Origin: a virus
Reading direction: 5' to 3' (one strand)
Length of the DNA: 63,950 nucleotides
IMG/VR virus record: IMGVR_UViG_3300009158_002119
Coordinates: 1 to 63,950 of that record
The translations under genes were made by a program, and so were the position numbers. A model generated the notes under the pieces. It was not told where the DNA came from. It was given only the letters and a program-made list of their open reading frames with translations, and searched no databases. Of this stretch, positions 8,201-57,125 are shown piece after piece (position 1 is the stretch's first letter; the number at the start of each line of letters is the position of its first letter).

Positions 8201-8889
8201 AATAAATTATATTTTCTTTTTTCATCATCTTCACCCGAAAATATTCCTTTATTATGTATTCGGTATATACCTCCAGGAAAATTTAAATACTTTATTTTTC
8301 CATAACAAGATATACGGTAGTTAATCCCCCAATCAAGATATGGTAATTCATACATCCACGGTTCAAATAAATTTTCTATTTTTTTAAAAACTTTACCAAA
8401 ACCAACATAATTTTTTTCTAAAAGATTATCAGTAGTGACACAATCTTTAATATCTAATGAAATTCCCCTCCACTCATCTATTTTAGGTGGTTCTATATGA
8501 TTTTTATGTTTTAACCATTTTTCTCTATGTCCACAAAACACCATGGTAGTATCAATATTATTATCTAAATAATCAACACTTTTTTGTAGAAGATCCATAT
8601 TATCCCAATAGTCATCACCATCCAATATCGCAATATATTCACCCTTAGCTTTTGAGTATAAAAATTCAAAATTTTTGGTGGGACCTAAATTTTTATCAGG
8701 TTCAAAAAATTTAATCTTTTTATTTAGTTCGGCAATTCTCCTTATATGTTGCATGCTTTTATCTGAGGAAAAATCATCTCTAACTAAAATCTCATAATCA
8801 AAATTTGTTTTTTGACCTAACGCAGAGATTAAAGCCTGTTCTATATATTCCTCAAACATATATGAAACTATAATAACACTAACTTTCAT
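5230..8889 (-). CDS. four-domain glycosyltransferase / FkbM methyltransferase fusion
   Basis: 1219 residues with four catalytic modules. Residues 1-235 are a GT2 GT-A domain (MKVSVIIVSYMFEEYI, acidic motif ILDGDDYW at 88-95). Residues 245-610 are a GT-B domain of GT4 type (HLSTGGMPQFVL, LNVGLWTSGKNQ, and late NSTWECNPLVVRE). Residues 630-990 resemble the TibC/Aah (BAHT) protein O-heptosyltransferase family, including its small N-terminal beta domain, the SFGSKSLGDTMAW loop and a C-x2-C-x13-C-x11-C finger (C944, C947, C961, C973), which in TibC binds iron. Residues 1015-1215 are an FkbM-type SAM methyltransferase (DIGSSVGPFTYS, KTDCEGGEYEMF). It overlaps the upstream minus gene by 11 bases. 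The likely role is stepwise building and capping of a glycan, possibly on Ser/Thr-rich phage proteins. The domain families are clear; the substrate is inferred. Confidence 0.85.
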   Translation of the reverse strand: MKVSVIIVSYMFEEYIEQALISALGQKTNFDYEILVRDDFSSDKSMQHIRRIAELNKKIKFFEPDKNLGPTKNFEFLYSKAKGEYIAILDGDDYWDNMDLLQKSVDYLDNNIDTTMVFCGHREKWLKHKNHIEPPKIDEWRGISLDIKDCVTTDNLLEKNYVGFGKVFKKIENLFEPWMYELPYLDWGINYRISCYGKIKYLNFPGGIYRIHNKGIFSGEDDEKRKYNLLKSKEIIKKNHNKEMNKKIKLLYLTPHLSTGGMPQFVLKRIQELQKFKDQIEIFLVEFSQFSNTYVVQRDKIIDLLGEGHFFSLGDTTDTKRKYELIDIIKNNNIDIVHSEEMLEGFESFNKIPLPLLNQLYSNDRTWKMVETCHNVWFNPQTHKKFNPESYCFVTPYHLKETFLNETPMKFLSLYPIENKVTKILEEYEIYGDFNQVPLIKKTVVREELGLDMFKTHVLNVGLWTSGKNQGEGVEVARELIESNPDIQFHFIGNQAPNFEDYWGPIMNNLPSNVKVWGERNDVEKFMMACDVLMFNSTWECNPLVVRESINYGMKILTRDLPQYMGMFNGYITPIEGDVKTISKQLVELIENKDVYKILPDNTFGEDLLNFYNAVTNLNITQNKPLTKDYTFVRHYVTQPYFEVQGTTENKLNIKYYDDKNEISYQNELPINSWVKLNKEYFIKWRTTVEENGEVIYDETLDLKDKRVYISFGSKSLGDTMAWVPYCEVFRKKHGCQLIVSTFLNSLFKDQYPDIEFVEPGELVTNIHAQYRLGWHYTSEGVYDNNKHPFDFKKMPLQKTATDILGLDYEEVRPLLKLPNTPKKKKVGIGFHSTAQSKYWNNPDGWQAVVDHLNTLGYECMIYSKEGDGYMNNHYPKGVTIFKGGNLQEVIDDLSECEFFIGLGSGLSWLAWACKLPVVLISGFSEKWAETTLDTYRVINESVCHGCFNSDRLDAGDWNWCPLHKNTDRMFECTKEITSEVVIGEINKLLNSNPLPKFDWGWMNNGDDNGNYHKHAMYNEIFEQRLYEQFFEVEEGDIVLDIGSSVGPFTYSILHKKPKHVFCIEPSESEFTTLIRNTLGHPVTHINKGLSNFNGVIEHDQLFGGETHMESITFDKFIKLYGLNRIDFVKTDCEGGEYEMFKPENLDFIKKNVKKIVGEWHLRTPEHKVEFRNFRDNILTQFDNIQVFSVDGVNIKWDLWNDHFIEYYSEVILYIDNRK

Positions 8890-9893: not shown

Positions 9894-10865
9894 ATGCCAA
9901 TACCAAATGTTATAAAATACTCTACAACTCCTGACTCAAAATCTTTAAAGGTTGGTAATTTTTCTTTGGGTGTGTCTGATAGTGCTTACGGGGATACTAA
10001 TTCAACAGGATATTGGAATGGATATGACATTCAATCCAATAAACTAGTTATTTATCAAAATAAAGCATTAAATGGTCCATCAATTAGAGTTTTTGATATA
10101 GCATCTTTTGATTTCCTTGATTGGGTAAATAATACATTCAATCAAAATTTCACAATTGGTGAAATTGAATTAACATATGTTTATATCAATAGTTTAGGAT
10201 CCACAATACTTGTTGATAAAAGTTATCCTGTAATATCTACAAGTGGTTTGACATTACATTTAGATGCTGGATTTATGCCATCATATCCACAATCAGGATC
10301 AACATGGACCGATTTAAGTTTTAGTGGTAATAATTCTACTTTGTTTAATAGTCCAGTTTGGGCTTCAACTTTTGGTGGTGGTTTTATTTTTGATGGAACT
10401 AATGATTATGGTACTGCCGGTTCAGGTTTAGCCATTACCGGTAACCTTACGGTAGCCGCTTGGGTTAGACCAACTACATCATTTGCAAATCAAGGTAATA
10501 TTATGGCTAAAAGTGGTAATCAAGGATATAGAATGAGATTCCAAACTGATGGTACTTTTTGGATGTCTGCCAATGGAAATACAATCACATCACCATCTGC
10601 ATATACAGTAAATAATTGGTTTTATACTGTGGGGGTATTTTCTTCTTCAGGTTTACGAATGTATATAAATGGTAGTTTAGTACAATCAAATGGTACCGCA
10701 TTTTCACCGTCCTACGATGCAGGTAATTTTTTTATTGCGGGACTTACGTCAACTCAAGAACTTTTTCGTGGTAGAATCGCGACTCTGAGTGTATACAATA
10801 GGTCTTTAGATGCGACTGAAATATTGAATAACTATAATAATCAAAAATCAAGATTCGGATTATAA
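9894..10865 (+). CDS. LamG-domain tail fibre/adhesin
   Basis: 323 residues. The N-terminal ~105 residues form a putative virion-anchoring module (KVGNFSLGV, GYWNGYDI) that resembles the start of two later fibre genes. Residues 112-323 are a concanavalin-A-like LamG/Laminin_G_3 jelly roll (GLTLHLDAGF, FDGTNDYGTAG, LTVAAWVRPT, RIATLSVYNRSL) ending in NYNNQKSRFGL. LamG domains bind glycans or protein ligands, so a receptor-binding role is likely. There is no signal peptide, as expected for a virion protein. It opens the plus-strand adhesin block. A structural protein is well supported; the ligand is unknown. Confidence 0.8.
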   Translation: MPIPNVIKYSTTPDSKSLKVGNFSLGVSDSAYGDTNSTGYWNGYDIQSNKLVIYQNKALNGPSIRVFDIASFDFLDWVNNTFNQNFTIGEIELTYVYINSLGSTILVDKSYPVISTSGLTLHLDAGFMPSYPQSGSTWTDLSFSGNNSTLFNSPVWASTFGGGFIFDGTNDYGTAGSGLAITGNLTVAAWVRPTTSFANQGNIMAKSGNQGYRMRFQTDGTFWMSANGNTITSPSAYTVNNWFYTVGVFSSSGLRMYINGSLVQSNGTAFSPSYDAGNFFIAGLTSTQELFRGRIATLSVYNRSLDATEILNNYNNQKSRFGL

Positions 10866-12140: not shown

Positions 12141-13709
12141 ATGGCAACAACAAGACCTTTTTCGTATAATACAGGATCACCAATCTCAGGAACAATTCAG
12201 GTTGGTAATTTAGCCGTTGGTTACCCAACAACAGGATTTACAGGGATGGAATGGTGGAACGGACCTGATGAGGATTTAGGTTATGTGATTGCACAACCCG
12301 TTTCAGGAGATACCCAACCAACACCTATAACAATAAATGAAATTTTTTTAAGTTCAACTTACAGGGGTACTGATATTATCCTAAGTAATAATAATCAAAC
12401 CGCATATCAACAATTTGGGTATCAACAATCTGTTTTGGGAACCAACCCAATTGGTTCTACGGATAAAGTAATGTTTAGTATTTTATGTACCTTGGCAACA
12501 CCACCAGCATTACCAAACAGTCACTTTGTTGGTATTGGATATACTTCAATGAATTATCAAGGAAATCCTTATGGTGGTTACCCCGGTAATGATGGTAATA
12601 GTATGGGATATGGTAGCGATGGAAATATTTGGTATAACGGAAGCATATATTTAGGTGGTCTTCAAACTTGGGGTGATGGTGACATAATTGATATTATTAT
12701 CAATAATAATGTTAATACATTGTGGGTTAGAGTTAATGGTGGTAATTGGAATAATAGTCTTTCGGATAACCCTGAAACAAATGCGGGAGGACTTGAAATT
12801 ATAGGAGACCCATTTTATCCTGTGTTATGTCCAGGATATGAAGGTACAATGATAGTACAAAATTCACCAACATATAATGTTCCAAATGGATATACATTTT
12901 TAGGGTTAACATCTGCATCTGTTGGTTTTTTTAGAACAAATGGTTTTGATGATAATGAATTTATTAATATTACAAATACCCTTTTAAATTCAAATTATAC
13001 TGCAACAACCGATGCTTCAACAGGGTTAACAATAAATGGATATTGGAATTCATATACTGTAAATGGTGGGAATGGTTTAACCCCCGAAACTGCAGGAGAT
13101 AACGCTCTTCAAATAAAAACGGATTATTCCGGATCAACTGATGGTTTATATTGGATTAAAAATAATAATATAAGTGGTGGAACACCATTCCAAATATATG
13201 CTGATATGACAACAGATGGTGGTGGTTGGACATTATTGGTTACAAACCAAAACACCGATGGATGGACATATGAAAACTCTATATTATTAAATGAATTTAA
13301 CCCTGTTTCAGGTGGTTCAAACTATTCAATAGTTGCTTACGCTGATTATTTAAAAAGTTCAGGTGCGACATTCCAATATATGATAGACGCTTACCAAAGA
13401 AATCAATTTGGTGGTATATGGTCAGCCCCACAATTTTATTCATTTGTTTATACTGCTAATACACAAACATTTGTGACTATTAACACTAAATTTGGTACTT
13501 GGAATTATAATGATGGTAGTATTGAACAATATATGCCTTGGCGTAGTACTAGTAGTGGTTTATTAACCACATCATCCAATCCTGGTGGTGAATGGTGGGG
13601 AACTTTAATCACTAATGGTGGTTGGAACCCCGCACCTTGGATTAGTGGTGATTGTGGTTTAGATGGATGTATGCCTAATCCAGGAATTATATGGTATTGG
13701 GTAAGATAA
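12141..13709 (+). CDS. adhesin with SPRY-like and fibrinogen-like domains
   Basis: 522 residues. Residues 1-60 are an anchoring module nearly shared with the next gene (MATTRPFSYNTGS, WWNGPDEDLGYVI). Residues 70-255 resemble a SPRY beta-sandwich (HFVGIGYTSMNY, MGYGSDGNIWYNG, LWVRVNGGNWNN). Residues 253-305 repeat a second anchor-like segment (FINITNTLL, INGYWNSY). Residues 320-522 match the fibrinogen C-terminal domain (QIYADMTTDGGGWTLL, GGEWWGTLI) with CGLDGC near the end. Both folds are familiar from eukaryotic recognition proteins; fibrinogen-related domains often bind acetylated sugars. The likely role is host or surface-glycan recognition by the virion. Domain calls are by motif only. 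Confidence 0.75.
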   Translation: MATTRPFSYNTGSPISGTIQVGNLAVGYPTTGFTGMEWWNGPDEDLGYVIAQPVSGDTQPTPITINEIFLSSTYRGTDIILSNNNQTAYQQFGYQQSVLGTNPIGSTDKVMFSILCTLATPPALPNSHFVGIGYTSMNYQGNPYGGYPGNDGNSMGYGSDGNIWYNGSIYLGGLQTWGDGDIIDIIINNNVNTLWVRVNGGNWNNSLSDNPETNAGGLEIIGDPFYPVLCPGYEGTMIVQNSPTYNVPNGYTFLGLTSASVGFFRTNGFDDNEFINITNTLLNSNYTATTDASTGLTINGYWNSYTVNGGNGLTPETAGDNALQIKTDYSGSTDGLYWIKNNNISGGTPFQIYADMTTDGGGWTLLVTNQNTDGWTYENSILLNEFNPVSGGSNYSIVAYADYLKSSGATFQYMIDAYQRNQFGGIWSAPQFYSFVYTANTQTFVTINTKFGTWNYNDGSIEQYMPWRSTSSGLLTTSSNPGGEWWGTLITNGGWNPAPWISGDCGLDGCMPNPGIIWYWVR

Positions 13710-13726: not shown

Positions 13727-14824
13727 ATGGCAACTGCAAGACCTTTCGCATATAACACAGGTTCAACCATAACAGGAACAATACAAATTGGTTCATTGGC
13801 CGTTGGTACGCCAACATCGGGATTTACTGGAAACCCTAGATGGTGGAATGGACCTGATGAAGATTTAGGGTATGTTATTTGTAGACCAAATACTAATGGA
13901 AATCAACCAAATCCTGATAATGTACCGGCTTATATCAGATTCTCAAGGTCAAAATTAAAAACAGACCAATCATTTATTAACTTAGTTAATTCTGTATTTA
14001 AACAAACATTTACAACGACCAGTGAGTGTACATCGTATTTAACGACAAATGGGTATTGGACTTCTTATGTTTCTCCCCCAACACCAACACCAACATTAAC
14101 TAATACGCCGACATTAACACCAACTCAAACACCAACATTAACTCAGACATTAACACCAACTAATACGCCAACATTAACAAGAACATTAACACCAACTCCA
14201 ACTAATACACCAACACCTACAAACATTAATTCACAAGGATTTAGTTATTCTAACTTTGCGTCAACTGGAGGCACTGTTTCTGTTGGTAACGTATCACTTT
14301 CATCAAACATTCTTTTTTTAACAACTGCGGCTAATGGTCAGGTTGGTAATGTTTATAGAACAACCGCAATTCAATTTAATAGAAATTTCTCGGCTCAATG
14401 GTCAACATTTATCGGAGGAGGTACAGGTGCCGATGGATACTGTATTCAATGGACACCAACTAATAACACTAACGGGACTGCAGGTGGTGGTGTAGGATAC
14501 GTTAGTTCCGCAATAAACGCAATTACATTCTTAACATATTCAAATAACAATTATACTTGGTATAAAAATAATGTTTCACAAGGTTCAACGAGTGTTACCC
14601 CAGGACTTTGGAGACAAACATTATATTTCTGGGGTGACTATAATCATTCGGCACAAACATTTGCACTTTATTGGAGCACAACAAATAGTAAACCTGGTTC
14701 GGCAAATAAAACATTTACTAGTTTCTCATTTGACACAAGTTCTTATTACATGGGATTTGGTGCGGCAACGGGAGGAGCAAATGATAACCATCAATTACTT
14801 TCTTGGGTTTTAACATTCACATAA
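13727..14824 (+). CDS. adhesin with Thr/Pro stalk and L-type-lectin-like domain
   Basis: 365 residues. The N-terminal 115 residues are paralogous to the preceding gene (MATARPFAYNTGS, WWNGPDEDLGYVI, TNGYWTSY). Residues 117-165 form a Thr/Pro stalk. Residues 168-365 look like an L-type (legume) lectin jelly roll, with GADGYCIQW, a GGGVGYV turn and a C-terminal LLSWVLTF strand. The anchor/stalk/lectin order is that of a receptor-binding protein. Immediately after its stop lies the 3' remnant of a different fibre gene, suggesting the C-terminal domain was exchanged. Confidence 0.7.
   Translation: MATARPFAYNTGSTITGTIQIGSLAVGTPTSGFTGNPRWWNGPDEDLGYVICRPNTNGNQPNPDNVPAYIRFSRSKLKTDQSFINLVNSVFKQTFTTTSECTSYLTTNGYWTSYVSPPTPTPTLTNTPTLTPTQTPTLTQTLTPTNTPTLTRTLTPTPTNTPTPTNINSQGFSYSNFASTGGTVSVGNVSLSSNILFLTTAANGQVGNVYRTTAIQFNRNFSAQWSTFIGGGTGADGYCIQWTPTNNTNGTAGGGVGYVSSAINAITFLTYSNNNYTWYKNNVSQGSTSVTPGLWRQTLYFWGDYNHSAQTFALYWSTTNSKPGSANKTFTSFSFDTSSYYMGFGAATGGANDNHQLLSWVLTFT
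14075..14221 (+). repeat. Thr/Pro-rich coding repeat (stalk)
   Basis: Encodes TPTPTLTNTPTLTPTQ-type units that share codons and wording with the repeats at 4460-4942 and 15457-17125, giving intragenomic homology for recombination. Confidence 0.85.
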
Positions 14825-17207: not shown

Positions 17208-18455
17208 ATGAGAATATTTGTACAAATTGCATCTTACAGAGATCCCCAATTAATCCCAACAATTAAAGATATGTTGGAAAAATCAAAAAAACCAAAAAAC
17301 ATTAGACTTGGTATCGCAAGACAATTTCACCCTGAAGACGGTTTTGACGATCTTTCAGAATATGAAAATGACAACAGATTTAGAATTTTAAATATACCTT
17401 ACACCGATTCAACAGGAGTTTGTTGGGCAAGAAACTTGACACAACAATTATATGAAGGTGAAGAATATACATTACAATTAGATTCTCACATGAGATTTGA
17501 ACAGGATTGGGATGACACCTTAATCAAAATGATTAAACAATTACAAAAGAAAGGATATAAGAAACCTTTGTTGACGGGATATGTTTCTTCATTTGATCCT
17601 GATAATGATCCACAAGGGAGAGTTAAAGAGCCATGGAGAATGGCATTTGACAGATTCACACCTGAAGGTTGTGTTTTCTTTTTACCTGAAACAATACCAG
17701 GTTGGGACAAATTAAAGTCTCCAATCCCCTCAAGATTTTATTCGGCACATTTCTGTTTTACTTTAGGTCAATTTTCAACTGAAGTACAACATGATCCTGA
17801 GTTTTATTTTCACGGAGAAGAAATTTCAATTGCGGTAAGAGCATATACTCACGGATATGATTTATTCCACCCACATAAAACGGTTATTTGGCATGAGTAT
17901 ACTCGTAAGGGTAGAACAAAACAATGGGATGATGATAAAGAATGGGGTAAACGAAATGAAAGATGTCATCAAAAGAATAGACAATTATTAGGTGTTGATG
18001 GTGAAGTTCCCGATAGTGATTTTGGGATCTATGGTTTAGGAACTGAAAGAACAATACAAGATTATGAAAAATATTCTGGTCTATTATTTTCAAAAAGAGC
18101 GGTACAACAACACACATTAGATAAACAATACCCACCAAACCCTTACACATATAGTTCTGAAGAAGAATGGAAAGAATCTTTCTCTTCAATATTTAAACAT
18201 TGTATTGATGTTAATTATGGTAGCGTACCTGAAACAGATTATGATTTTTGGGTGGTAGCATTCCATAATGCAAAAGATGAAACGTTATATAGATTAGATG
18301 CTGGAATCGATGAGATTAATAGAATGAAAAATGATCCTGATGGTTATTGTAAAGTATGGAGAGAATTTAATGCTACGGATAAACCAACCTATTGGGTTGT
18401 ATGGCCTCACTCTGTATCAAAAGGGTGGTGTGATAGATTAACAGGTAATTTATAA
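17208..18455 (+). CDS. GT60-type polypeptide alpha-GlcNAc-transferase-like protein
   Basis: 415 residues matching the GlcNAc (PF11397) family: IFVQIASYRDPQLIPTI at 3-19, TGVCWARNLTQQL at 69-81, and the metal-binding LDSHMRFEQDWD at 91-102. Known GT60 members (Dictyostelium Skp1 hydroxyproline GlcNAc-transferase, Trypanosoma mucin Thr GlcNAc-transferases) put alpha-GlcNAc on protein hydroxyls. It starts 62 bases after the mucin-like Thr/Pro gene and heads the glycosylation operon, with the next gene 3 bases away. The likely role is to start O-glycans on Thr of the neighbouring repeat proteins (inference). Confidence 0.8.
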   Translation: MRIFVQIASYRDPQLIPTIKDMLEKSKKPKNIRLGIARQFHPEDGFDDLSEYENDNRFRILNIPYTDSTGVCWARNLTQQLYEGEEYTLQLDSHMRFEQDWDDTLIKMIKQLQKKGYKKPLLTGYVSSFDPDNDPQGRVKEPWRMAFDRFTPEGCVFFLPETIPGWDKLKSPIPSRFYSAHFCFTLGQFSTEVQHDPEFYFHGEEISIAVRAYTHGYDLFHPHKTVIWHEYTRKGRTKQWDDDKEWGKRNERCHQKNRQLLGVDGEVPDSDFGIYGLGTERTIQDYEKYSGLLFSKRAVQQHTLDKQYPPNPYTYSSEEEWKESFSSIFKHCIDVNYGSVPETDYDFWVVAFHNAKDETLYRLDAGIDEINRMKNDPDGYCKVWREFNATDKPTYWVVWPHSVSKGWCDRLTGNL

Positions 18456-18458
18456 AAT

Positions 18459-19172
18459 ATGACTTTAGCAGTAATAACTCAAATTAGGAATGAATCAAAA
18501 AGATTAAAAGAGTGGGTAGAATTTCATTCTTCTTTTCATAAAATAGACCATTTTTTATTTTATTTAGATAATCCTGAAGATAATTCTGAAGAAATGTTAA
18601 ATGAATTAAAAAAAACATATAGCATTGATTATAAATTTACAAATCCTATTGGTGAATATAATGGCAATAATTGTACAATAGCAACAGAAAGACAAAAAGA
18701 ATCGTTTAAAGATGGTTTTATATTTTTAAGAGATAAATTTGATTGGGTTGCAATTTTTGACGTTGATGAATGGATTGTACCTAATAACATAGATGATTAT
18801 GATTTAAAAAAAACGTTATCTGAAGTTAGTGAAAACATTCTTTATCTTCCTATGTATAATTTTATCCCACCTTTTGATTACGATAAATCAATTACTGAAC
18901 AAAATTTTTATAGATGGTCGTGTCAAGAACGAATAGATAATGAACATTTAAGTTGTGGTAAATCAATTATTAGAGGTAAAATTTATTTAGATAGAATATT
19001 TGATGTAGATGTTCATATAGGTCCAGCTCTTGATGGATATAGAAATAATGTAGATTTTAATTCAACAAACCACACATTTAGGTTACATCAATTTCAAGGA
19101 CATATGGGACATTCTAATAAAAAATATGAAATTTTTGATGACTCAATAAAAAAAATAATAAATAAAAAATAA
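18459..19172 (+). CDS. GT2/GT92-like glycosyltransferase
   Basis: 237 residues. The N-terminus reads LAVITQIRNESKRLKEWVEFH, typical of the Glyco_tranf_2_4/GT92 group, with an acidic metal motif FDVDEWIVP (D101-V-D103-E-W). It starts 3 bases after the GT60-like gene, so it is in the same operon and probably coupled. The Lys-rich C-terminus (KKIINKK) is short. It probably adds a second sugar; donor and acceptor cannot be read from the sequence. Confidence 0.7.
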   Translation: MTLAVITQIRNESKRLKEWVEFHSSFHKIDHFLFYLDNPEDNSEEMLNELKKTYSIDYKFTNPIGEYNGNNCTIATERQKESFKDGFIFLRDKFDWVAIFDVDEWIVPNNIDDYDLKKTLSEVSENILYLPMYNFIPPFDYDKSITEQNFYRWSCQERIDNEHLSCGKSIIRGKIYLDRIFDVDVHIGPALDGYRNNVDFNSTNHTFRLHQFQGHMGHSNKKYEIFDDSIKKIINKK

Positions 19173-19178
19173 AAAAAT

Positions 19179-19721
19179 ATGAAGAAAATTTTTATAGATG
19201 GTGGAGCAAGAATTGCCGAATCATTTGACATAATTAATCGTGATATGCCTCAATACTCTAATTTTGAATTTATATTGTACGAACCTCACCCAAATCATAC
19301 TGATTTTTTAGAAAATCTTTCTAAAGAAAAAAATTTTAAATTTGTTAATGGTGCTATTTGGGATAAAACAGGATTATCCGATTTTTATCTTGCTATTGAT
19401 TTTTATGGTGATCAAGGAAGTACATTATGTGATGACAAAAAAGAAAAATTAGATTTAGAAAATCCTATTAAAGTTAACACATATGATATTGTTGATATAT
19501 TAAATGAGTTTAGTGATGATGATTATATTGTATTAAAATTAGATGTTGAGGGTGGAGAGTATGATATTATACAGAGATTAATAGATACTAATAATTTACA
19601 TAGAGTTAATGAGTATATTATAGAATGGCATGACCAATTTTATGAGGGTAAACGAAAACCAAGATGGTATTTTATTGATGAAATAAATAAATTTAGCACA
19701 CATAGAGATTGGGTGTATTAA
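19179..19721 (+). CDS. FkbM-family SAM methyltransferase
   Basis: 180 residues with the FkbM pattern: FIDGGARIAESF near the N-terminus in place of motif I, FILYEPHPNH after strand 2, and the hallmark LKLDVEGGEYDII at about 118-130. FkbM enzymes O-methylate sugars and polyketides. The gene is 6 bases after the GT92-like gene and 10 before the GT6-like gene. It probably caps or decorates the glycan. The family assignment is good; the methyl acceptor is unknown. Confidence 0.75.
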   Translation: MKKIFIDGGARIAESFDIINRDMPQYSNFEFILYEPHPNHTDFLENLSKEKNFKFVNGAIWDKTGLSDFYLAIDFYGDQGSTLCDDKKEKLDLENPIKVNTYDIVDILNEFSDDDYIVLKLDVEGGEYDIIQRLIDTNNLHRVNEYIIEWHDQFYEGKRKPRWYFIDEINKFSTHRDWVY

Positions 19722-19731
19722 AAATAAAATT

Positions 19732-20514
19732 ATGAAAAAAAAAATAGCAGTTATATCAGGTTGGTATAACTTTGGGGAAAATAACGGAATTAGTGATGAT
19801 AATAGGTTTATGACTAATTGTTTTTATGAAAGTGCAAAAAAACACTTTTTACCTCATCACGATGTTGAATTTATTTTTATGAACAATAGTGATATCACAA
19901 TAGATGGGGTAACAAATATAAATTTTGATTATCAAATTGAGGGGTTTTGGGAAATGTGTTTAATGAAAATTTTAAGTTTAAAATTTTTAAAAAACGAATA
20001 TGACTATATATTTGTTCATGATAATGATCAAGTTTACATTAAAGACGTAAATAACAAAATATTAGAATCTGATTTTACATTTGTGGACCATTTTTATCCA
20101 TCACCCGTTAAGGATATTTACGAACAAGTAACAGATATAGTAGAACTAAACTTCAACACATCTGAAGAAAAATGGACTATGGGTAATTTTTTTGGTGGAA
20201 AACAAAAAAATATGATGGAGTTATTATCAATAACTGAAGAACAAAATAAAAAATATTTTGGTTATAATTTTAATCAAAATTATTTTTATTCAAGGTATCC
20301 TGAAGAACTTTTTATTGTTAAATATGTTTATGAAAATAATATTAACCATAAAAGGCTTAATACGTGTGTACATCCATTACAATCTGAGGGGGAATATTTT
20401 TTAAGCGATTGGGGTGATGATGATTCGGTTCCTTTTGAGGTTACAAACGTAAATTTATTACACAACACTAAAAAAAATTTAAATAAATTAAGAAAATTAT
20501 ATAAACAAAATTAA
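19732..20514 (+). CDS. GT6-family (ABO/alpha-Gal type) glycosyltransferase-like protein
   Basis: 260 residues with the layout of GT6 enzymes: ESAKKHFLPHHDVEFIFM (cf. the TAEKYF region), YDYIFVHDNDQVYI with an intact acidic D97-N-D99, TMGNFFGGKQKNMMEL (cf. the AFFGG acceptor loop) and YPEELFIVKYVYEN (cf. the HDES helix). Vertebrate GT6 enzymes make blood-group A/B and alpha-Gal epitopes; bacterial members usually replace DXD by NXN, so the acidic form here is closer to the metal-dependent type. A GT6 gene is known from a marine cyanophage. It lies inside the glycosylation operon. Confidence 0.65.
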   Translation: MKKKIAVISGWYNFGENNGISDDNRFMTNCFYESAKKHFLPHHDVEFIFMNNSDITIDGVTNINFDYQIEGFWEMCLMKILSLKFLKNEYDYIFVHDNDQVYIKDVNNKILESDFTFVDHFYPSPVKDIYEQVTDIVELNFNTSEEKWTMGNFFGGKQKNMMELLSITEEQNKKYFGYNFNQNYFYSRYPEELFIVKYVYENNINHKRLNTCVHPLQSEGEYFLSDWGDDDSVPFEVTNVNLLHNTKKNLNKLRKLYKQN

Positions 20515-20523
20515 AAAAATTAT

Positions 20524-21861
20524 ATGGAAGAAAATAAAAAAATAGTTATAGCACAATTTTTTACCACTAACCTTAGTTATGGTAAATTTACAAAAGAAAT
20601 AAATAAAAAGTATTGTGATGAAAAAGGATACATATATCATTTAGAGTCCGACAATAATAAAATAAAAACTGCATTAGAAGGTAGATCCCCAACATGGTAT
20701 AAACCAAAATTTATTAATGAGGTTTTTGAGTTATATAATCCTGATTACATTCTTTTTTTAGATGCAGATGCGATAGTATGTGATTTTAGTTATAAAGTGG
20801 AAGATTTTATTGATTCAGATTATAATATTATATGTACCGAAGATTATGGACCTAGTAAATTAAATGCTGGTGTTTTCATAATGAAAAATTCAGATTGGAC
20901 AAAACGAGTAATGAATAAATGGTGGGAGACAGGTAATAATTTAGTTGGAGGACCAAATAATGAAATGGGGTTCTATAAAACGGGATTATGGCACGATCAA
21001 ACTTGTTTCGGACATTTAATGGATATTATGCCCGATTCTAAAACAAACATTAAATTAATAACTAATAAAGTATTAAACGGTAGAGAGTATAAAAATAACG
21101 TAGATAAAAATTTTATATTTCACGCCTTCTCTTATGGTATGTTACCAAATAGAACCATTGATAAATGTTATTACGACATCTTCAATATAGATATCCCTGA
21201 TGGTGAAAAATTATCTGATATTGTAGAATATTACGATACGGATAAACATTATGAACATAATTATTTAAGATTAATTTACGATGATTTATTTCTTCCCATA
21301 CGAGAAGAAGTTAAAACTTTTGTTGAGATAGGTGTGAATCATGGAGGATCTATTTTAATGTGGAGAGATTATTTTAAAAACTCAAAAGTTTTAGGGTTAG
21401 ATAATAATTTACCTTTCTGTGAAGAAAAATTAAGAGATAAAAATTTAGATCGTATTGAATTAATTAATCTTGACCAATCAATTCCTGAAATGTTAGAAAC
21501 ATTTGCAAACCAATATAGTGACATTGATGTTATATTAGAAGATGGTTCACATAGAATGCACGATCAACAAATCACATTAGCAAAATTATTTAAAACATTA
21601 AAGTCAGGGGGGATATATGTACTTGAGGACTTACATACTAGTTTAGAGGCTCCGATGCCTGAAAAGGCTTGGTGTGGGTGGGGAGACTCAACAAAAACAT
21701 TAACCTTAGATATGTTAAACAATTTCATATCAACGGGCAAAATACAATCCGATTATTTAACGGAAGATGAGATTAATTATTTAAATGATAATATTTTATC
21801 TGTAGAGATATATCAAAATAGACCCGATTGGAGTATAACAAGTGTAATAATAAAAAAATAA
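20524..21861 (+). CDS. GT34-like glycosyltransferase fused to SAM methyltransferase
   Basis: 445 residues. The N-terminal domain (1-225) has the GMA12/MNN10 (GT34) pattern: TWYKPKFINEVF, the metal motif LFLDADAIV (D80-A-D82), KLNAGVFIMKNSDW and WHDQTCFGHL. The C-terminal domain (230-445) is a class I methyltransferase of the macrocin-O-methyltransferase type (FVEIGVNHGGSILMW, VLGLDNNLPF, DVILEDGSHRMHDQQ, YVLEDLHTS). The stop codon overlaps the next start (TAATG). It is a bifunctional transfer-and-methylate enzyme in the same operon. The final sugar identity is unknown. Confidence 0.75.
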   Translation: MEENKKIVIAQFFTTNLSYGKFTKEINKKYCDEKGYIYHLESDNNKIKTALEGRSPTWYKPKFINEVFELYNPDYILFLDADAIVCDFSYKVEDFIDSDYNIICTEDYGPSKLNAGVFIMKNSDWTKRVMNKWWETGNNLVGGPNNEMGFYKTGLWHDQTCFGHLMDIMPDSKTNIKLITNKVLNGREYKNNVDKNFIFHAFSYGMLPNRTIDKCYYDIFNIDIPDGEKLSDIVEYYDTDKHYEHNYLRLIYDDLFLPIREEVKTFVEIGVNHGGSILMWRDYFKNSKVLGLDNNLPFCEEKLRDKNLDRIELINLDQSIPEMLETFANQYSDIDVILEDGSHRMHDQQITLAKLFKTLKSGGIYVLEDLHTSLEAPMPEKAWCGWGDSTKTLTLDMLNNFISTGKIQSDYLTEDEINYLNDNILSVEIYQNRPDWSITSVIIKK

Positions 21862-22832: not shown

Positions 22833-25193
22833 ATGGAAGATTTTTTTGACAAGGTTTTACACTACTATGGTAGAAAAGGTGAAAAACTATTTATGATTAA
22901 CATTGGTGCAATGGACGGTGTTTTATTTGATAGTATGAGTGGTTATGCGGATATGTATAATTCAGATGTGTTATATGTGGAACCAATGAAACCTCACTTT
23001 GACAGATTGGTTAAACATAAAGGAGGTAACCCAGCTAATAAGTTTGAGAACTCCGCAATTAGTAACTACAACGGAACTATAAACATGAAAACAATTCCAA
23101 TTGAGATTGTTGATCAAGGATTAGTTCATCAAGCATTTTATGGTATGAGCGTTATTGACCCAACAAAGAATGGTATGGGTAGTGAAGGAGATAGAGAAGT
23201 TGTTGAGAAGTATGCCGTAGATGTTGAGGTTAATTGCATTACTTGGGATACGTTAGTTAAAAAACACGATATAGATTATTTTGATGTATTATCTGTAGAT
23301 ACGGAGGGACATGACTATACAATATTCAAACAAATTGATTTAGAAAAATTTAGACCTATTTTAATACGTTTAGAATGGTGTAATATGACAGACGAAGAAA
23401 AAACTAACATCCTTAATAAATTTACCTCATCAGGATATGTTTATGAAATTTTGGATAATATGGATATTGATGCGGTTAGAGAAGATGTGTATGAAGAAAT
23501 AAAGTCAAAATTAGAACCAAAACAAATAATTGAAACCTCAAACTCAAAACTTACATTAGTGACAGGTCTTTGGGATATTGGAAGAGGTGACCTTCAAGAA
23601 GGGTGGTCTAGATCATTTCAACATTATTTAGATAAATTTCAACAACTATTACAGGTTGATGTGAATATGATAATATTTGGAGATAAAGAATTAGAAGAAT
23701 TTGTATTAAACAATAGAAGTAGTGAAAACACACAATTTGTAATCAGGGATTTATCTTGGTTTAAAAATAATGATTTTTATGATAAAATACAAAAGATAAG
23801 AACTAACCCTGATTGGTATAATCAAATTGGTTGGTTAACAAATTCTACACAAGCTAAATTAGAAATGTATAATCCTTTGGTAATGTCCAAAGTTTATCTT
23901 TTACACGATGCAAAGATTTTAGATAAGTTTGATTCAGAATATATGTTTTGGATTGATGCTGGTTTAACAAATACAATTCATCCAGGATACTTCACTCAAG
24001 ATAAAGTTTTAAATAAATTACCTCAATTGGTTAAGAATTTTCACTTTGTTTGTTTCCCTTATGAAACAAATAGTGAAATACATGGATTTAAATATCAAGA
24101 GTTGTGTGATTTAGCGGGTAAACCTGTTAATATGGTTGCTAGAGCTGGTTTCTTTGGTGGAAAAAAAGATGTTATTTCTGAAATCAATAGTATATACTAT
24201 GGATTAATGAACGATACTTTATCACAAGGGTTAATGGGAACTGAAGAGTCGTTATTTACAATTATGACCTACAAATATCCTAATTTAATAACGTATTCCG
24301 AAATAGAAAATAATGGTTTGATGGGTAAATTTTTTGAGGATTTAAAAAATATGACGGTTGAAACTAAAATTAATGATATTGGTAGTGAGATAGGATTATA
24401 TGTTATTACGTTTAATTCACCAAAACAATTTGAGACTCTAATTGAGTCAATGTTAGACTACGATCCATCATTCGTAACTAAAACTAAAAAATATTTACTT
24501 AATAACTCAACAGATTTAACGACAACCGAAAGATATATTCAACTATGTAACCAATATGGGTTTGAACATATTAAAAAAGATAATATTGGTATAACAGGTG
24601 GAAGACAATTTATTGCTGAACATTTTAATGAACAAAATAATTTAAGTCATTATTATTTTTTTGAGGATGATATGTTTTTTTATAATGGGGGAGATATAAC
24701 TTGTAAAAATGGATTTGTTAGAAAAATAAAAAACATATTTGACAACACATTAAAAATAATAAAAGAAGAAAATTTTGATTTTTTAAAGTTAAACTTTAGT
24801 GAATTTTATGGTAGTCACAATAAACAATGGGCTTGGTATAATGTTCCACAATCTTTCAGAGAATCCCATTGGGTAAACAATCCAAGATTACCCGAACATG
24901 GTTTGGATGCTAACTCACCTAATTTAGAATTTAAACACATAAAATCTTATAATGGAATACCATATGCTACAGGTGAAATTTATTTGTGTAACTGGCCAAT
25001 AGTCATGTCAAAAGAAGGTAATTACAAATGTTATCTTAAAACAAAATATGGTATGCCTTATGAACAAACTCTTATGTCCCATTGTTATCAAGAAATGGTA
25101 AAGGGTAATATAACGGGTTCTGTATTACTTTCAACACCAACTGATCACAATAGATTTGATTTTTATGATGGTAATTTGAGAAAAGAATGTTAA
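22833..25193 (+). CDS. FkbM methyltransferase / HtrL-YibB-like / GT-A fusion
   Basis: 786 residues. Residues 15-230 are FkbM-like (FMINIGAMDGVLFDS, LYVEPMKPH, DVLSVDTEGHDYTIF). Residues 235-510 resemble the HtrL/YibB family (LVTGLWDIGRGDLQ, MFWIDAGLTNTIHPG, ARAGFFGGKKDVI, GTEESLFTIM), which is linked to LPS-core glycosylation. Residues 525-786 look like a GT-A transferase (GLYVITFNSPKQFETLI, YYFFEDDMFFYNGG as the acidic motif, EQTLMSHCYQEM). It is the last gene of the glycan operon, 9 bases after the preceding gene. Its methyltransferase-first order is the reverse of the fusion at 5230-8889. Confidence 0.75.
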   Translation: MEDFFDKVLHYYGRKGEKLFMINIGAMDGVLFDSMSGYADMYNSDVLYVEPMKPHFDRLVKHKGGNPANKFENSAISNYNGTINMKTIPIEIVDQGLVHQAFYGMSVIDPTKNGMGSEGDREVVEKYAVDVEVNCITWDTLVKKHDIDYFDVLSVDTEGHDYTIFKQIDLEKFRPILIRLEWCNMTDEEKTNILNKFTSSGYVYEILDNMDIDAVREDVYEEIKSKLEPKQIIETSNSKLTLVTGLWDIGRGDLQEGWSRSFQHYLDKFQQLLQVDVNMIIFGDKELEEFVLNNRSSENTQFVIRDLSWFKNNDFYDKIQKIRTNPDWYNQIGWLTNSTQAKLEMYNPLVMSKVYLLHDAKILDKFDSEYMFWIDAGLTNTIHPGYFTQDKVLNKLPQLVKNFHFVCFPYETNSEIHGFKYQELCDLAGKPVNMVARAGFFGGKKDVISEINSIYYGLMNDTLSQGLMGTEESLFTIMTYKYPNLITYSEIENNGLMGKFFEDLKNMTVETKINDIGSEIGLYVITFNSPKQFETLIESMLDYDPSFVTKTKKYLLNNSTDLTTTERYIQLCNQYGFEHIKKDNIGITGGRQFIAEHFNEQNNLSHYYFFEDDMFFYNGGDITCKNGFVRKIKNIFDNTLKIIKEENFDFLKLNFSEFYGSHNKQWAWYNVPQSFRESHWVNNPRLPEHGLDANSPNLEFKHIKSYNGIPYATGEIYLCNWPIVMSKEGNYKCYLKTKYGMPYEQTLMSHCYQEMVKGNITGSVLLSTPTDHNRFDFYDGNLRKEC

Positions 25194-25220: not shown

Positions 25221-25943
25221 ATGGAATTTTACATTAAGAAAAATGCTACGTTACCCGTTTTAAAGATGCAAGTCGTTAAAGACGGTAGAAGTGATTATAA
25301 TAAGATGATGGAAATGATTGAGGAATCTTCTATCTTCTTTTCAATGGTAGATACTGAGACTGGAATTCCAAGAATTGTTACAAGACCCGCAGGATTTGTT
25401 GAGAAAACATTATTGGACCCAAATGCTGAGTATGAGTATTATGTTTATTATCAGTTCACATCAAATGATACAAGAAAAGTTGGTAGATATGAAGGTCAGT
25501 TCTTATTAAGAAATTCAGATGGCACATTAATTTTACCAATCAGAGAAAAACTTTATATAAACGTACAAGAAAGTTTCATTGCGGATGATCTTCCGTATGA
25601 ATCTTGTTATGTTGTTGGTTTCCCTTGTTGTGCTAGTATACCTACAACAACTACAACCACAACAACACCTTGTCCTAGTTGTAGGGCTTGTTGCCCACCA
25701 ACTCCAACACCATTACCGACAACAACAACTACTACATATATACCAATCACAACAACAACAACAATCCACAATGATTTTGTTGTTTTAGACATACCAGAAA
25801 ATGATGTAAACTTTGGTTTAGTAATAACTAATTTAGTTCCTATAGAAATACCTGAAGATGATGTAAACTTTGATTTGGTTATTACAAATTTAGTCCCTAT
25901 AGAAATACCTGAAGATGATGTAAACTTTGATTTAATAATTTAA
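25221..25943 (+). CDS. virion/baseplate-type protein with Thr linkers and C-terminal repeats
   Basis: 240 residues. Residues 1-125 look like a beta-rich baseplate or fibre-base domain (MEFYIKKNATLPVLKMQVV, YYVYYQFTSNDTRKVGRYEG, REKLYINVQESF). A linker follows with poly-Thr and Cys (IPTTTTTTTTPCPSCRACC, PTPTPLPTTTTTT). The C-terminus is two and a half copies of a 19-residue unit (IPEDDVNFDLVITNLVPIE). No catalytic motif is seen. It is probably a structural connector, with the terminal repeats forming short beta strands. Confidence 0.65.
   Translation: MEFYIKKNATLPVLKMQVVKDGRSDYNKMMEMIEESSIFFSMVDTETGIPRIVTRPAGFVEKTLLDPNAEYEYYVYYQFTSNDTRKVGRYEGQFLLRNSDGTLILPIREKLYINVQESFIADDLPYESCYVVGFPCCASIPTTTTTTTTPCPSCRACCPPTPTPLPTTTTTTYIPITTTTTIHNDFVVLDIPENDVNFGLVITNLVPIEIPEDDVNFDLVITNLVPIEIPEDDVNFDLII
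25791..25940 (+). repeat. 57-base tandem repeat
   Basis: Two full units (25791-25847, 25848-25904) and a 36-base partial (25905-25940), in frame, with few differences. The stop codon follows the partial unit directly. Confidence 0.9.
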
Positions 25944-25953
25944 AATTATAAGA

Positions 25954-25960
25954 TATTTAT
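25954..25960 (+). promoter_or_regulatory. TATTTAT element, candidate phage promoter
   Basis: AAGATATTTATAAATAAAAAT, 29 bases before the ATG of the carbonic-anhydrase-like gene. Confidence 0.5.
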
Positions 25961-25989
25961 AAATAAAAATAAAAAGAAAAATAAAAAAA

Positions 25990-27081
25990 ATGATACAAGG
26001 AATAAGAATTACAAGTCAAAATTTATCGGGGGATACCGCTAATGTTACTTTTAACCCACAAACGGGTGGTACAATTAATTTAGGTACACAAACAATACCT
26101 TTTAATAATATCACAAATTATCCTTATGGTACTTATGAATTATTTGTACCTGAATTTAATTACACATATGATGTAATTGTCCCAGCCCCGCAAAATGGTC
26201 AGGATGCATATACGACAACAGTTAGAGACGTTACAATAGATGGTGGATTAAAACCATTCTCAGGAGCGGTATTATCTGAAGTATGGGGGACATATACAAC
26301 TGATTATATTACAAATCAAGGAATACCATCAACATCTATTGTTTTAGCTGAAGGTATTTGTTCTGATGATGTTGACGCATCAAAAGTACCATCAAATATT
26401 GGTCAATGGCCAAATAGTATTAATTCGTTTTTAGGTCCATTTATGTCAGGTGGATTAGCGGGATATCCATTTGTGGGTAGTGTTGGTTTTGGGGCATTTG
26501 CAAGTCACGTAGCAACAAGTGGTGCTACCGAAACAAATGCCACTTTATTTGTTACGAGTATGCCACATATTGGTGTGACTGAAGATGGTCGTTCAGGAAG
26601 AATGTTACGTAGAGGTAAAGCTGATAGTATAACAGATAATACTTGTGGTGCAGTTTGGGGAGCAATTAACCAAGTTGTAAATGTTTTATCAGCACCTCCA
26701 AGTCAAAGTAATCCACCATTTGATAATGGTAATTATTCTTTTTGGAAGTTAACAGATATTTTATGGCCATTTAAAAACGTATTATCAGGATTTACAGGAA
26801 CTAGTGAGGAAATATATAATAAACAAATGATTTTTGCGACAGAAACAATTAGAGATGCCGCATATGATTATATTATTGATGTTTTACCAAGTCAAGTGAC
26901 GGGTAACACACAAAACGATGTATATTTTTTAAGTGGTATTTTTATCAATACTGATGTTATTCCTGACAGTACATTACAATTTGAATCTTATGTTGTTGTT
27001 GATAAAGTTATGAAATATGAATTTGGTATTGGTTGGAGTGATATTACCATTAGTTATAACACTGGATTACCAATTGACTAA
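25990..27081 (+). CDS. virion-type protein with LCIB-like beta-carbonic anhydrase domain
   Basis: 363 residues. Residues 1-70 form a small beta domain (IRITSQNLSGDTANVTF, NYPYGTYELFVPEFNYTY) of the kind found on phage structural proteins. Residues 90-350 resemble the LCIB/C family, whose fold is that of beta-carbonic anhydrases: EGICSDDVD (C124), GGLAGYPFVGSVGFGAFASH (154-173), SMPHIGVTEDG (H193) and TCGAVWGA (C219). The Cys-His-Cys set and the Asp beside C124 correspond to the Zn ligands and catalytic Asp of LCIB proteins. Some LCIB homologues hydrate CO2, others appear inactive. The N-terminal module suggests display on the particle (inference). It ends in a gap with a weak terminator. Confidence 0.7.
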   Translation: MIQGIRITSQNLSGDTANVTFNPQTGGTINLGTQTIPFNNITNYPYGTYELFVPEFNYTYDVIVPAPQNGQDAYTTTVRDVTIDGGLKPFSGAVLSEVWGTYTTDYITNQGIPSTSIVLAEGICSDDVDASKVPSNIGQWPNSINSFLGPFMSGGLAGYPFVGSVGFGAFASHVATSGATETNATLFVTSMPHIGVTEDGRSGRMLRRGKADSITDNTCGAVWGAINQVVNVLSAPPSQSNPPFDNGNYSFWKLTDILWPFKNVLSGFTGTSEEIYNKQMIFATETIRDAAYDYIIDVLPSQVTGNTQNDVYFLSGIFINTDVIPDSTLQFESYVVVDKVMKYEFGIGWSDITISYNTGLPID

Positions 27082-27109
27082 TTAAAAAAATTAACAAATC
27101 AGTTGATAA

Positions 27110-31463: not shown

Positions 31464-31476
31464 ATGAGTTTTATTT

Positions 31477-31483
31477 ATAAATA
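31477..31483 (-). promoter_or_regulatory. TATTTAT element, candidate phage promoter (minus strand)
   Basis: On the minus strand AGATATTTATAAATAAAAC, 13 bases before the ATG of the neck protein gene. Confidence 0.55.
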
Positions 31484-31488
31484 TCTTA

Positions 31489-36695: not shown

Positions 36696-39600
36696 ATGGC
36701 AACTAACGGTAAAGTATTCGTATCACCTGGTGTTTATACTTCTGAAGTGGATTTAAGTTTTGTGGCACAAAGTGTGGGAGTTACCACATTGGGTATTGCA
36801 GGTGAAACTTTAAAAGGTCCAGCTTTTGAACCGATATTCATCAAAAACTATGAGGAATTTCAAACTTACTTCGGAGGAACATCCGCAGAAAAATTCATAA
36901 ACACACAGATCCCTAAGTATGAGGCCGCTTACATAGCAAAATCATATTTACAACAATCTAATCAATTATTTGTAACAAGAGTTTTAGGACTTTCTGGTTA
37001 TGATGCAGGACCATCTTGGTCTATTGTAACTAAAGCAAATGTTGATCCAACTACCATTGACTTTTATTGTGATACACCACAAATAGTTGATTGTTTACCT
37101 TATTGTGATCCTGCAGATTATAAGATTATACCTTATGTTGTAGAATTTACGGGGTGTTCAAACTCACAAACAACTATTAGTTATACAACTAATTTCCCTG
37201 CTGAGATTGAAACTATATTAACTACTCAGTTTGAACAATTTAATGGAGATGTATCAACATTAGAAACTCAAATCAATACTATGATTTTTGATGTACTTAC
37301 TGATGCTAACCCATTTACTGCACAAACTAACACAATAGATTATTTCGGAACAATTTATGGTCCTGATTATGATGCGTTATCAACAGTTTTCGTAAATGAA
37401 ACTAATGTTTATGGTGTACCTTCAGTATCAAGTACTGAAACTAATTATGAATCACCATATAATGACCCTTGGTATTATTCATTATTTACAAATAATGGTA
37501 ATAATAGTTATTCAGGATTCTCATTCTTTGCATATGTTGATGATTTGACTTTAATACCGGTAACTACAACAACAACAATTCCATTTACACCGACACCAAC
37601 ACCGTCGGCAGTTAATCCATGTGCTACGGCAACGCCAGCATTATCACCTACACCTACACCAACCGCAGTTAATACTAATTGTTATACAGGTACAATTAAT
37701 GGATCGGTTTATTATTATACAGGTACATCATATACTAACTTTGATGATTTAGTTGTTGGTACATTAAGATCAAGAGGTATTGCAACATACGCAGATTCAA
37801 CAAACCCATTGTTTGAAGTGACAAATATTAATAATGTAAATTTAAATATGTCAGGACAATATGTGGGAGTTCTTAAAAATCCATATTTACCATTCGTTGT
37901 TAATGTAACAAATGATGATGGAACTGCATTCTCTTTTGAGACATCATTTGCAACTTCAGATTCTCAGTACATTTCTAAAGTATTTGGATCAACTAACTTC
38001 CAAAAACCAAGAAAGAATGTTCCTTTATTCTTAGAGGAAAAATTCCAAGCTTTATTAAACTATGGATGGAACAAAGGTTTCATTAGAGGTTTGAGTTCAA
38101 ACTTAATTGAATTAGATTCCGCACAAAGTGGACAACAAGATAGTATTGGATGGTACTTAGATAGATACCAATCACCAAGTACCCCTTGGATTGTATCTGA
38201 ATTAAGAGGTACTAAAGTATTTAACTTGTTCAAGTTCTACTCAATTTCTGATGGTAACTCAGCAAACTCTGAAATTAAAGTTTCAATTATCAATATGTCA
38301 TTCTCCAATGGAACATTTGATGTAATTGTAAGAGATTTCTACGATTCAGATGCCAACCCTACAGTTTTAGAGAAATTTACAAATTGTAGTATGGATTTAA
38401 ATCAAAATAATTTCATCGGTAAAAAAATAGGTTCATTAGACGGAGAATATGCGTTGAACTCTAAATTTGTAATGGTTGAAATGAATGAGGACGCACCTAT
38501 TGATTCATTACCTTGTGGTTTTGATGGATATACATTTAGAGAATATGCTGATGTAACACCTCCATTCCCTGTTTATAAAACTAAATATGATTACCCTGGT
38601 GAAATTATTTATAATCCACCTTTCGGTTTTACAAGTGGTAACGATGATTCAATCAGATCAAATGGTGATAACGTTAGAAGAACTTATTTAGGTTTCTCTA
38701 ATAACATCGGATTTGACACAGACTTCTTCCAATACAAAGGAAAAAGAGCTCCAATTGATTTATGTAATGTTGATGGAGTTGAGTGGTCATACCAAACAAG
38801 AGGATTCCACATGGATAAAGATGCTAGTGTTATTGTAATAGGACCAGCATTTGCAACAAGTGGAACACCTAAATACTATGTTGGTGATGCTACATTCCAA
38901 CAAGAACCTACAAGTGAAACAAGTCCATATTACAGAATTTACTCAAGAAAATTCACAACAATGTTCTATGGTGGTTTTGACGGATGGGATATCTATAGAG
39001 AATACAGAACAAATTCAGACAGATTTGTACTTGGTAGAAATGGATTCTTGAACGGAGCTTGTCCTTCACCAAGATATCCATTAGCAACAGGATGGGGAGC
39101 ATTTAAACAAATCTCTATCGGTGATGGAACACAAAGTTTCGCAAATACTGACTACTACGCTTACTTATTAGGAATCCAAACATTCTCTAATCCTGAGGCG
39201 GTTAACATCAATGTATTTGTATCCCCAGGTATTGACTACGTAAACAATAGTGACTTAGTTGAAGCTACAATTGATATGATTGAAAACGACAGAGCTGACT
39301 CATTGTATATTGCAACAACACCTGACTACAATATGTTCTTACCTACTACTACAGGTGGTGATGGATTGATCTACCCACAACAAGCGGTTGACGACTTAGA
39401 ACAAACAGGAATTGACTCTAACTACACGGCAACTTATTACCCTTGGGTATTAACTCGTGATAGTGTGAACAATACTCAAATCTACATCCCAGCAACGGCT
39501 GAGGTAACAAGAAACTTGGCATTGACCGACAACATTGCATTCCCTTGGTTCGCAGCGGCAGGTTACACAAGAGGTATTGTAAACTCAATCAAAGCACGTA

Positions 39601-40037
39601 AGAAGTTGACTCAAGAAGATAGAGATACTCTTTACCAAGGAAGAATCAACCCAATTGCAACCTTCTCTGATGTTGGTACAGTAATTTGGGGTAACAAGAC
39701 TCTTCAAGTTAGAGAATCTGCTCTTGATAGAATTAACGTGAGAAGATTATTATTACAAGCTCGTAAATTGATATCTGCAGTTTCTGTGAGATTGTTATTT
39801 GACCAAAACGACGAACAAGTAAGACAAGACTTCTTAAATGCGGTTAATCCAATCTTAGATGCAATCAGAAGAGACAGAGGTTTATACGACTTTAGAGTTA
39901 CGGTTTCAAGTGACACTGAAGACTTAGACAGAAATCAAATGGTAGGTAAAATCTATATCAAACCAACTCGTTCTTTAGAGTTCATAGATATAACATTCTA
40001 CATCACTCCAACAGGAGCATCGTTTGACAATATCTAA
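36696..40037 (+). CDS. contractile tail sheath protein
   Basis: 1113 residues against 659 in T4 gp18. The N-terminal FVSPGVYTSEVDLSFVAQ and GVTTLGIAGETLKGPAFEP are the sheath start. The C-terminal 250 residues are the conserved sheath core (ADSLYIATTPDYN, YYPWVLTRDS, NIAFPWFAAAGYTRGIV, ARKKLTQEDRDTLYQGRIN, RRLLLQARKLISAVSVRLLF, NQMVGKIYIKPTRS). The extra length is in the middle, a long surface domain containing a Thr/Pro tract (residues 288-328, TTTTTIPFTPTPTPS, TPALSPTPTPTAV). Sheath subunits form the outer contractile layer, so this tract would be displayed in many copies. A strong terminator follows. Confidence 0.9.
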   Translation: MATNGKVFVSPGVYTSEVDLSFVAQSVGVTTLGIAGETLKGPAFEPIFIKNYEEFQTYFGGTSAEKFINTQIPKYEAAYIAKSYLQQSNQLFVTRVLGLSGYDAGPSWSIVTKANVDPTTIDFYCDTPQIVDCLPYCDPADYKIIPYVVEFTGCSNSQTTISYTTNFPAEIETILTTQFEQFNGDVSTLETQINTMIFDVLTDANPFTAQTNTIDYFGTIYGPDYDALSTVFVNETNVYGVPSVSSTETNYESPYNDPWYYSLFTNNGNNSYSGFSFFAYVDDLTLIPVTTTTTIPFTPTPTPSAVNPCATATPALSPTPTPTAVNTNCYTGTINGSVYYYTGTSYTNFDDLVVGTLRSRGIATYADSTNPLFEVTNINNVNLNMSGQYVGVLKNPYLPFVVNVTNDDGTAFSFETSFATSDSQYISKVFGSTNFQKPRKNVPLFLEEKFQALLNYGWNKGFIRGLSSNLIELDSAQSGQQDSIGWYLDRYQSPSTPWIVSELRGTKVFNLFKFYSISDGNSANSEIKVSIINMSFSNGTFDVIVRDFYDSDANPTVLEKFTNCSMDLNQNNFIGKKIGSLDGEYALNSKFVMVEMNEDAPIDSLPCGFDGYTFREYADVTPPFPVYKTKYDYPGEIIYNPPFGFTSGNDDSIRSNGDNVRRTYLGFSNNIGFDTDFFQYKGKRAPIDLCNVDGVEWSYQTRGFHMDKDASVIVIGPAFATSGTPKYYVGDATFQQEPTSETSPYYRIYSRKFTTMFYGGFDGWDIYREYRTNSDRFVLGRNGFLNGACPSPRYPLATGWGAFKQISIGDGTQSFANTDYYAYLLGIQTFSNPEAVNINVFVSPGIDYVNNSDLVEATIDMIENDRADSLYIATTPDYNMFLPTTTGGDGLIYPQQAVDDLEQTGIDSNYTATYYPWVLTRDSVNNTQIYIPATAEVTRNLALTDNIAFPWFAAAGYTRGIVNSIKARKKLTQEDRDTLYQGRINPIATFSDVGTVIWGNKTLQVRESALDRINVRRLLLQARKLISAVSVRLLFDQNDEQVRQDFLNAVNPILDAIRRDRGLYDFRVTVSSDTEDLDRNQMVGKIYIKPTRSLEFIDITFYITPTGASFDNI

Positions 40038-57086: not shown

Positions 57087-57104
57087 TTTTATTGAATAAC
57101 TAGA

Positions 57105-57111
57105 TATTTAT
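57105..57111 (+). promoter_or_regulatory. TATTTAT element, candidate phage promoter
   Basis: CTAGATATTTATAAATAAAAAC, 14 bases before the ATG at 57126. Confidence 0.55.
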
Positions 57112-57125
57112 AAATAAAAACAATT

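Follow-up and report, generated by a model that had tools for sequence, protein, structure and literature searches.

Proteins of the LCIB family are known from algal CO2-concentrating mechanisms, and the locus studied here raises the question of what such a protein does in a phage. The window, a complete 63,950-base IMG/VR virus record, belongs to a contractile-tailed phage with tail sheath, tail tube, baseplate hub and head-tail adaptor genes, and it also encodes a DNA polymerase B, helicases, a UvsX-like recombinase and a DnaB-like helicase (Pfam, PHROGs). A sequence-only reading had described one of its genes as an LCIB-like beta-carbonic anhydrase joined to a phage structural module, and had suggested that the enzyme is either carried on the particle or used to alter the CO2/bicarbonate balance of the host. 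The ORF lies exactly where that reading had placed it, and the motifs and the numbering of C124, H193 and C219 were correct. The features of the locus are as follows.

25990-27081 (+): gene of the LCIB-domain phage protein, 363 aa (ORF call, Pfam, phmmer)
25990-26193 (+): N-terminal module (residues 1-68), rich in beta structure; also found on proteins of related phages that lack LCIB
26194-26250 (+): linker, residues 69-87 (alignment of viral copies)
26299-27000 (+): PF18599 LCIB_C_CA match, residues 104-337 (Pfam; fold by AlphaFold/Foldseek)
26359-26367 (+): codons of C124 (Zn), S125 and D126 (probable dyad Asp); C124 and D126 do not vary across the 46 sequences
26506-26508 (+): codon of H173, invariant; aligns with PtLCIB4 H88 (H88A mutant entry)
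26566-26568 (+): codon of H193, Zn ligand, invariant
26608-26610 (+): codon of R207, probable dyad Arg, invariant
26644-26646 (+): codon of C219, Zn ligand, invariant
27001-27078 (+): C-terminal tail (residues 338-363), a feature of viral but not of bacterial copies
25763-27090 (no strand): segment absent from the close relatives L173 and L174 (genome alignment)
25221-25943 (+): upstream gene with conserved 'FYIKKNATLPVLKMQVVKDGRSDYN' N-terminus and TTTTT linkers, flanking the exchange slot
25952-25967 (+): motif GATATTTATAAATAAA, 22 bases ahead of the LCIB start codon
L060, 9653-11983: carrier protein interrupted near residue 120 by an LCIB domain

The LCIB domain and its predicted active site

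A profile search, which the sequence-only reading had called for, gave PF18599 as the sole Pfam-A family in the protein, with an E-value of 1.7e-27 and 96.6 bits against a curated cut-off of 25. The phmmer matches in the PDB (6kfs, 9vzj, 9w05 and PtLCIB4, 5b5y; E 1e-11 to 5e-9) were all LCIB proteins, and a profile built from 19 viral copies recovered eight LCIB-family sequences, reaching as far as Chlamydomonas LCIB and LCIC. No match for the protein was found in PHROGs. In the first AlphaFold model the active-site loop was poor; when bacterial rows were added to the viral alignment the loop improved, the confidence of the N-terminal module fell, and the mean pLDDT was 77.5. The module is therefore a confident beta-sandwich in one of the two models and of low confidence in the other. 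Foldseek with the model returned LCIB structures only at E <= 1e-3 (5b5y, E 6.4e-14, TM 0.82 by target length), canonical beta-carbonic anhydrases ranking after them with weak E-values, and the viral structure library BFVD held no match to the model. Profile match and predicted fold together confirm the window protein as a member of the LCIB-type beta-carbonic anhydrase family, for which enzymatic activity is predicted.

In an alignment of 25 viral and 21 bacterial sequences, in which the relatives are 22-84% identical to the window protein, C124, D126, H173, H193, R207 and C219 are among the invariant columns. Sequence conservation and the predicted fold mark C124/H193/C219 as the predicted Cys-His-Cys zinc site, so that the ligands first marked from the sequence are all retained, and D126 and R207 probably represent the Asp/Arg dyad of beta-carbonic anhydrases. 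The register of the active site is fixed because two PtLCIB4 mutants in the PDB align with it: S47R alters the residue following the first zinc cysteine, which corresponds to S125, and H88A alters the residue aligned with H173. The LCIB/LCIC beta-carbonic anhydrases (PtLCIB4 5b5y/5b5z/5b60, CrLCIB 5k5w, CrLCIC 5b5x, 6kfs and 9vzj/9w05) have the same fold, Cys-His-Cys site and Asp/Arg/His residues, whereas the phage protein, at about 20% identity to them, adds the N-terminal module and the C-terminal tail and is exchanged as a whole-gene cassette.

Three of six homologues, including the solved Phaeodactylum protein, were reportedly active in a 2016 PNAS study. According to a review, there are LCIB-family proteins without carbonic anhydrase activity in which His162/161 and Arg194/193 are disordered, and some homologues are inactive although the site looks intact, which counts against reading the phage protein as an active enzyme (PMC5876011). 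Such inactive proteins would suit an explanation in which the LCIB fold is a stable zinc scaffold that recognises a component of the host or the particle with no relevant catalysis, as would the fibre- or adhesin-like proteins that occupy the same slot in sibling phages. Binding alone, however, would not demand that D126, R207 and H173 be invariant in the viral clade besides the zinc ligands, and we consider such a binding or structural head unlikely.

Modular architecture and cassette exchange

Every complete viral ORF examined carries 52-130 extra residues at the N-terminus, which differ by clade. The window protein has the NLSG beta module, 'GSALTLAEMDGNFEYF' and 'LKTNNIEP' modules are found in L078 and L073, a 'PYALKNPKTNTVVPG' type in many of L069-L084, and a short 'ELQNNGPIP' type in L062, L064 and L066. 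A 'ITDALNKQNTAS' module heads the LCIB protein of L068, but in the close relative L064 it heads the neighbouring gene instead. Ahead of the LCIB domain, many viral copies have a stretch of the type Q-x-x-Y-T-x-T-V. Several of the modules also head proteins of such phages that have no LCIB domain, in some cases with long TPTPT linkers, and the first ~68 residues of the window protein recur in non-LCIB proteins of related phages. The proposal that the N-terminal ~70 residues are a phage structural module gains support from this recurrence and from the swapping of modules between clades. None of the modules tested matched an annotated virion family, whether in PHROGs or in Pfam, which counts against a place on the virion.

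In L059 and L060 the LCIB domain interrupts another phage protein. An uninterrupted relative of this carrier, 499 aa long, is encoded in another LCIB-bearing phage (L164, 8154-9653, -), and its residues 1-120 and 120-499 match the two flanks of the inserted domain. The carrier matched no known family.

The genomic place of the gene also varies; the identities of protease, major head, adaptor, sheath, tube and portal are from PHROGs. In L064 and L068 the gene has a neck-type gene on one side and the tail-sheath gene on the other; in L073 and L078 it lies between the major capsid and head-tail adaptor genes, and in L069 and, by likeness, in L077 it is downstream of the portal and major head genes. 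In L060 it follows a putative baseplate gene, identified by reading only and without a PHROG match. In the window it lies between the TTTTT-linker protein and the DNA polymerase; this nearest downstream neighbour is not a morphogenesis gene, which counts against a virion role.

These observations bear on the explanation that the protein is a free or injected cytoplasmic carbonic anhydrase, an auxiliary metabolic gene product that would buffer pH or provide HCO3- for the synthesis of nucleotides or lipids. The catalytic set is conserved, the gene is sporadic among relatives, as is typical of auxiliary genes, and the carbonic anhydrase genes of giant viruses have been so interpreted (PMC13037468). 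A free enzyme, however, needs no phage N-terminal module, yet all complete viral copies have one and it varies by clade; in addition, the domain can be inserted inside a large phage protein, and genes are found within morphogenesis clusters. Because of this architecture, a cytoplasmic metabolic role is improbable, although the protein might still enter the cell along with the DNA.

The close relatives L173 and L174, whose DNA polymerase is 99% identical to that of the window, match the window as far as 25745-25762, and the alignment resumes at 27091 (about 97%). In place of the LCIB segment, L174 has a 642-aa ORF rich in proline and threonine (PT-rich), and other relatives have long fibre-like ORFs at this slot; the replacing proteins are termed fibre-like by composition and place, not by annotated family. 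In L033 and L034, at about 9900-10108, the last ~28-35 LCIB codons remain, joined in frame to the end of the upstream gene, as the deletion scar of a decayed locus.

The hypothesis that LCIB is a core gene was rejected, since the gene was absent from 16/16 large records of polymerase relatives. The controls of that search lacked the LCIB family, and the identical search was positive in all of the 19 LCIB-bearing records (90-272 kb, exactly one copy in each). The LCIB gene is accessory because none of those 16 records carries it. Given this result, the exchange in L174 and other relatives and the scar in L033/L034, the window gene appears to be an accessory cassette in a fibre-type slot, next to the DNA polymerase.

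The LCIB part gave pairwise dN/dS values (Nei-Gojobori) of 0.18-0.38, and the N-terminal module gave values of 0.02-0.28. The LCIB part is under purifying selection and therefore no chance ORF, and both parts are maintained. For most pairs, the LCIB part had about half the dS of the N-terminal module of the same gene, a pattern that separate recombination of the two parts would be expected to produce.

Distribution and origin of the viral LCIB family

Relatives found with the LCIB alignment are encoded on 125 IMG/VR stretches, which are partly redundant across assemblies and of which 80 were kept. The LCIB-bearing phages span at least two different major-head-protein families. Among isolated phages, tblastn gave no match with three diverse LCIB proteins, with three N-terminal modules, or with the LCIB-interrupted or uninterrupted carrier proteins, and plasmid records gave no LCIB match. 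A photosynthesis-linked auxiliary gene of cyanophages was considered and rejected, as 0/19 LCIB-bearing records, which are perhaps incomplete, had PF00124 (psbA/D) in a search whose cyanobacterial control was positive.

When genome contigs were scanned, a narrow alignment (A1) recovered nothing and a broader one (A2) recovered bacterial homologues, in Bacteroidota, Balneolota, Planctomycetota and others. These are stand-alone proteins of about 231 aa in which the domain lies close to the N-terminus and the extra module is missing. The bacterial proteins (Prolixibacteraceae, Balneolaceae, Planctomycetota; L085-L122) share the domain and the invariant residues with the phage protein at 25-36% identity in the best segment, but are separated from the viral copies by a fully supported branch. 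In the maximum-likelihood tree, the 25 viral rows form one side of this branch (100/100), apart from the bacterial rows and two PDB sequences, and the stem of the viral clade is long (1.49 changes per column). Because the branches are long, the root and the donor of the viral branch are unsure. The likeness to algal LCIB noted at first holds at the level of the family, but stand-alone homologues occur in bacteria as well, and the viral copies form a deep branch apart from these.

Proposed role on the particle and the probable host

The explanation that we favour, with a probability of about 0.6, is that the gene encodes an accessory virion protein. Its exchangeable N-terminal module would attach it to the particle, at the tail, the neck or a fibre appendage, and its LCIB-type beta-carbonic anhydrase domain would be displayed as an enzymatic head. 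The zinc at C124/H193/C219, aided by D126-R207 and H173, would most likely catalyse the interconversion of CO2 and HCO3-/H+ at the cell surface of the host while the phage adsorbs and enters. Speculatively, the phage might benefit from a changed pH or bicarbonate level close to the envelope, with the respiration of the live cell supplying the CO2; alternatively, the benefit could be recognition, with catalysis secondary. We infer location on the particle, activity and site of action from the modular build, the gene place, the cassette exchange and the catalytic conservation.

As in proteins of the appendage type, the N-terminal module is common to phage proteins with different distal parts, and the gene is found among morphogenesis or fibre genes in other clades and in a fibre-type exchange slot in the window. 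The domain insertion in a phage protein, the morphogenesis clusters elsewhere and the fibre-like replacement in siblings strengthen the original suggestion of a virion-type module. Of the two uses first suggested, the sequence comparisons favour carriage on the particle over alteration of the host CO2/bicarbonate balance, on which they say little. Tail-fibre and adhesin cassettes likewise have an anchor-like N-terminal module, an exchangeable distal domain and a locus common with PT-rich or fibre-like ORFs, but their distal domain is a lectin or degrades polysaccharides, whereas here a small-molecule metalloenzyme is predicted. The usual substrates of phage-fibre enzymes are surface polymers, and a zinc hydrolase of beta-carbonic anhydrase fold with another substrate, for example one that modifies the host surface, would agree with this, with the known enzymes of that fold that have other substrates and with the long viral stem, but it is very improbable given that the conserved residues are those of PtLCIB4.

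More generally, phages might display an active carbonic anhydrase as an interchangeable fibre-type head and exploit CO2/bicarbonate/proton chemistry on the surface of respiring cells in adsorption or DNA entry, a tentative proposal to which we give slightly less than even odds. In the searched literature, which mostly excludes subscription papers, we found no description of an LCIB gene in a phage or of a carbonic anhydrase on a virion; in a preprint combining carbonic anhydrase, virion and tail fiber, the enzyme was merely a size standard. Carbonic anhydrase genes of giant viruses are also virus-encoded and proposed as auxiliary, but these viruses infect eukaryotes, and the available part of the source gives no LCIB class or virion location for the enzyme (PMC13037468). 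The phage copies form a separate, well-supported viral LCIB branch in many uncultivated phages and appear to have the modular build of a virion-type protein. Confirmation of this would add a small-molecule metalloenzyme to phage particles, point towards inorganic-carbon or pH chemistry as a factor in infection, and provide phage protein catalogues with a missing family; the case also cautions against calling such genes metabolic before the architecture is checked.

Exact copies of GATATTTATAAATAAA, which includes the T4-type late-promoter core TATAAATA, occur three times in the window (25952-25967, +; 57103-57118, +; 31470-31485, -), each 6-22 bases before a start codon. This is far above chance (expected 0.05, one mismatch allowed), and a 192-kb relative has three exact copies too. 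The motif was not taken as proof of late expression, given only three exact copies and its lack upstream of many relatives.

Shine-Dalgarno-like sites precede 3/43 ORFs of the window and 4/170 ORFs of the 192-kb relative, and the leaders are A-rich. A-rich leaders without Shine-Dalgarno sites are typical of Bacteroidota, and their occurrence suggests a host of this type. Among named sequences, the sheath most closely matches those of a Microcystis phage and of Flavobacterium phages; the polymerase has distant matches in Salinibacter and Nostoc/Anabaena phages. A Bacteroidota host is probable.

Other genes of the window were also of note. A 2377-aa ORF (49953-57086, +) downstream of the tail genes had no PHROG match, and the tail sheath (36696-40037, +) is 1113 aa long, its PHROG match being best only in the C-terminal ~290 residues. 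Two ORFs 11-14 kb upstream of the LCIB gene (12141-13709 and 13727-14824, +) are likely adhesins, with weak fibrinogen-C, SPRY and legume-lectin-like matches. Glycosyltransferase and methyltransferase genes at 5230-8889 (-) and 17208-21861 (+) may form a glycan-modifying island; some are fused, as in GtrB-like plus methyltransferase at 5230-8889 and Glyco_transf_34 plus methyltransferase at 20524-21861. A 786-aa ORF (22833-25193, +) joins an FkbM methyltransferase domain to an HtrL_YibB domain.
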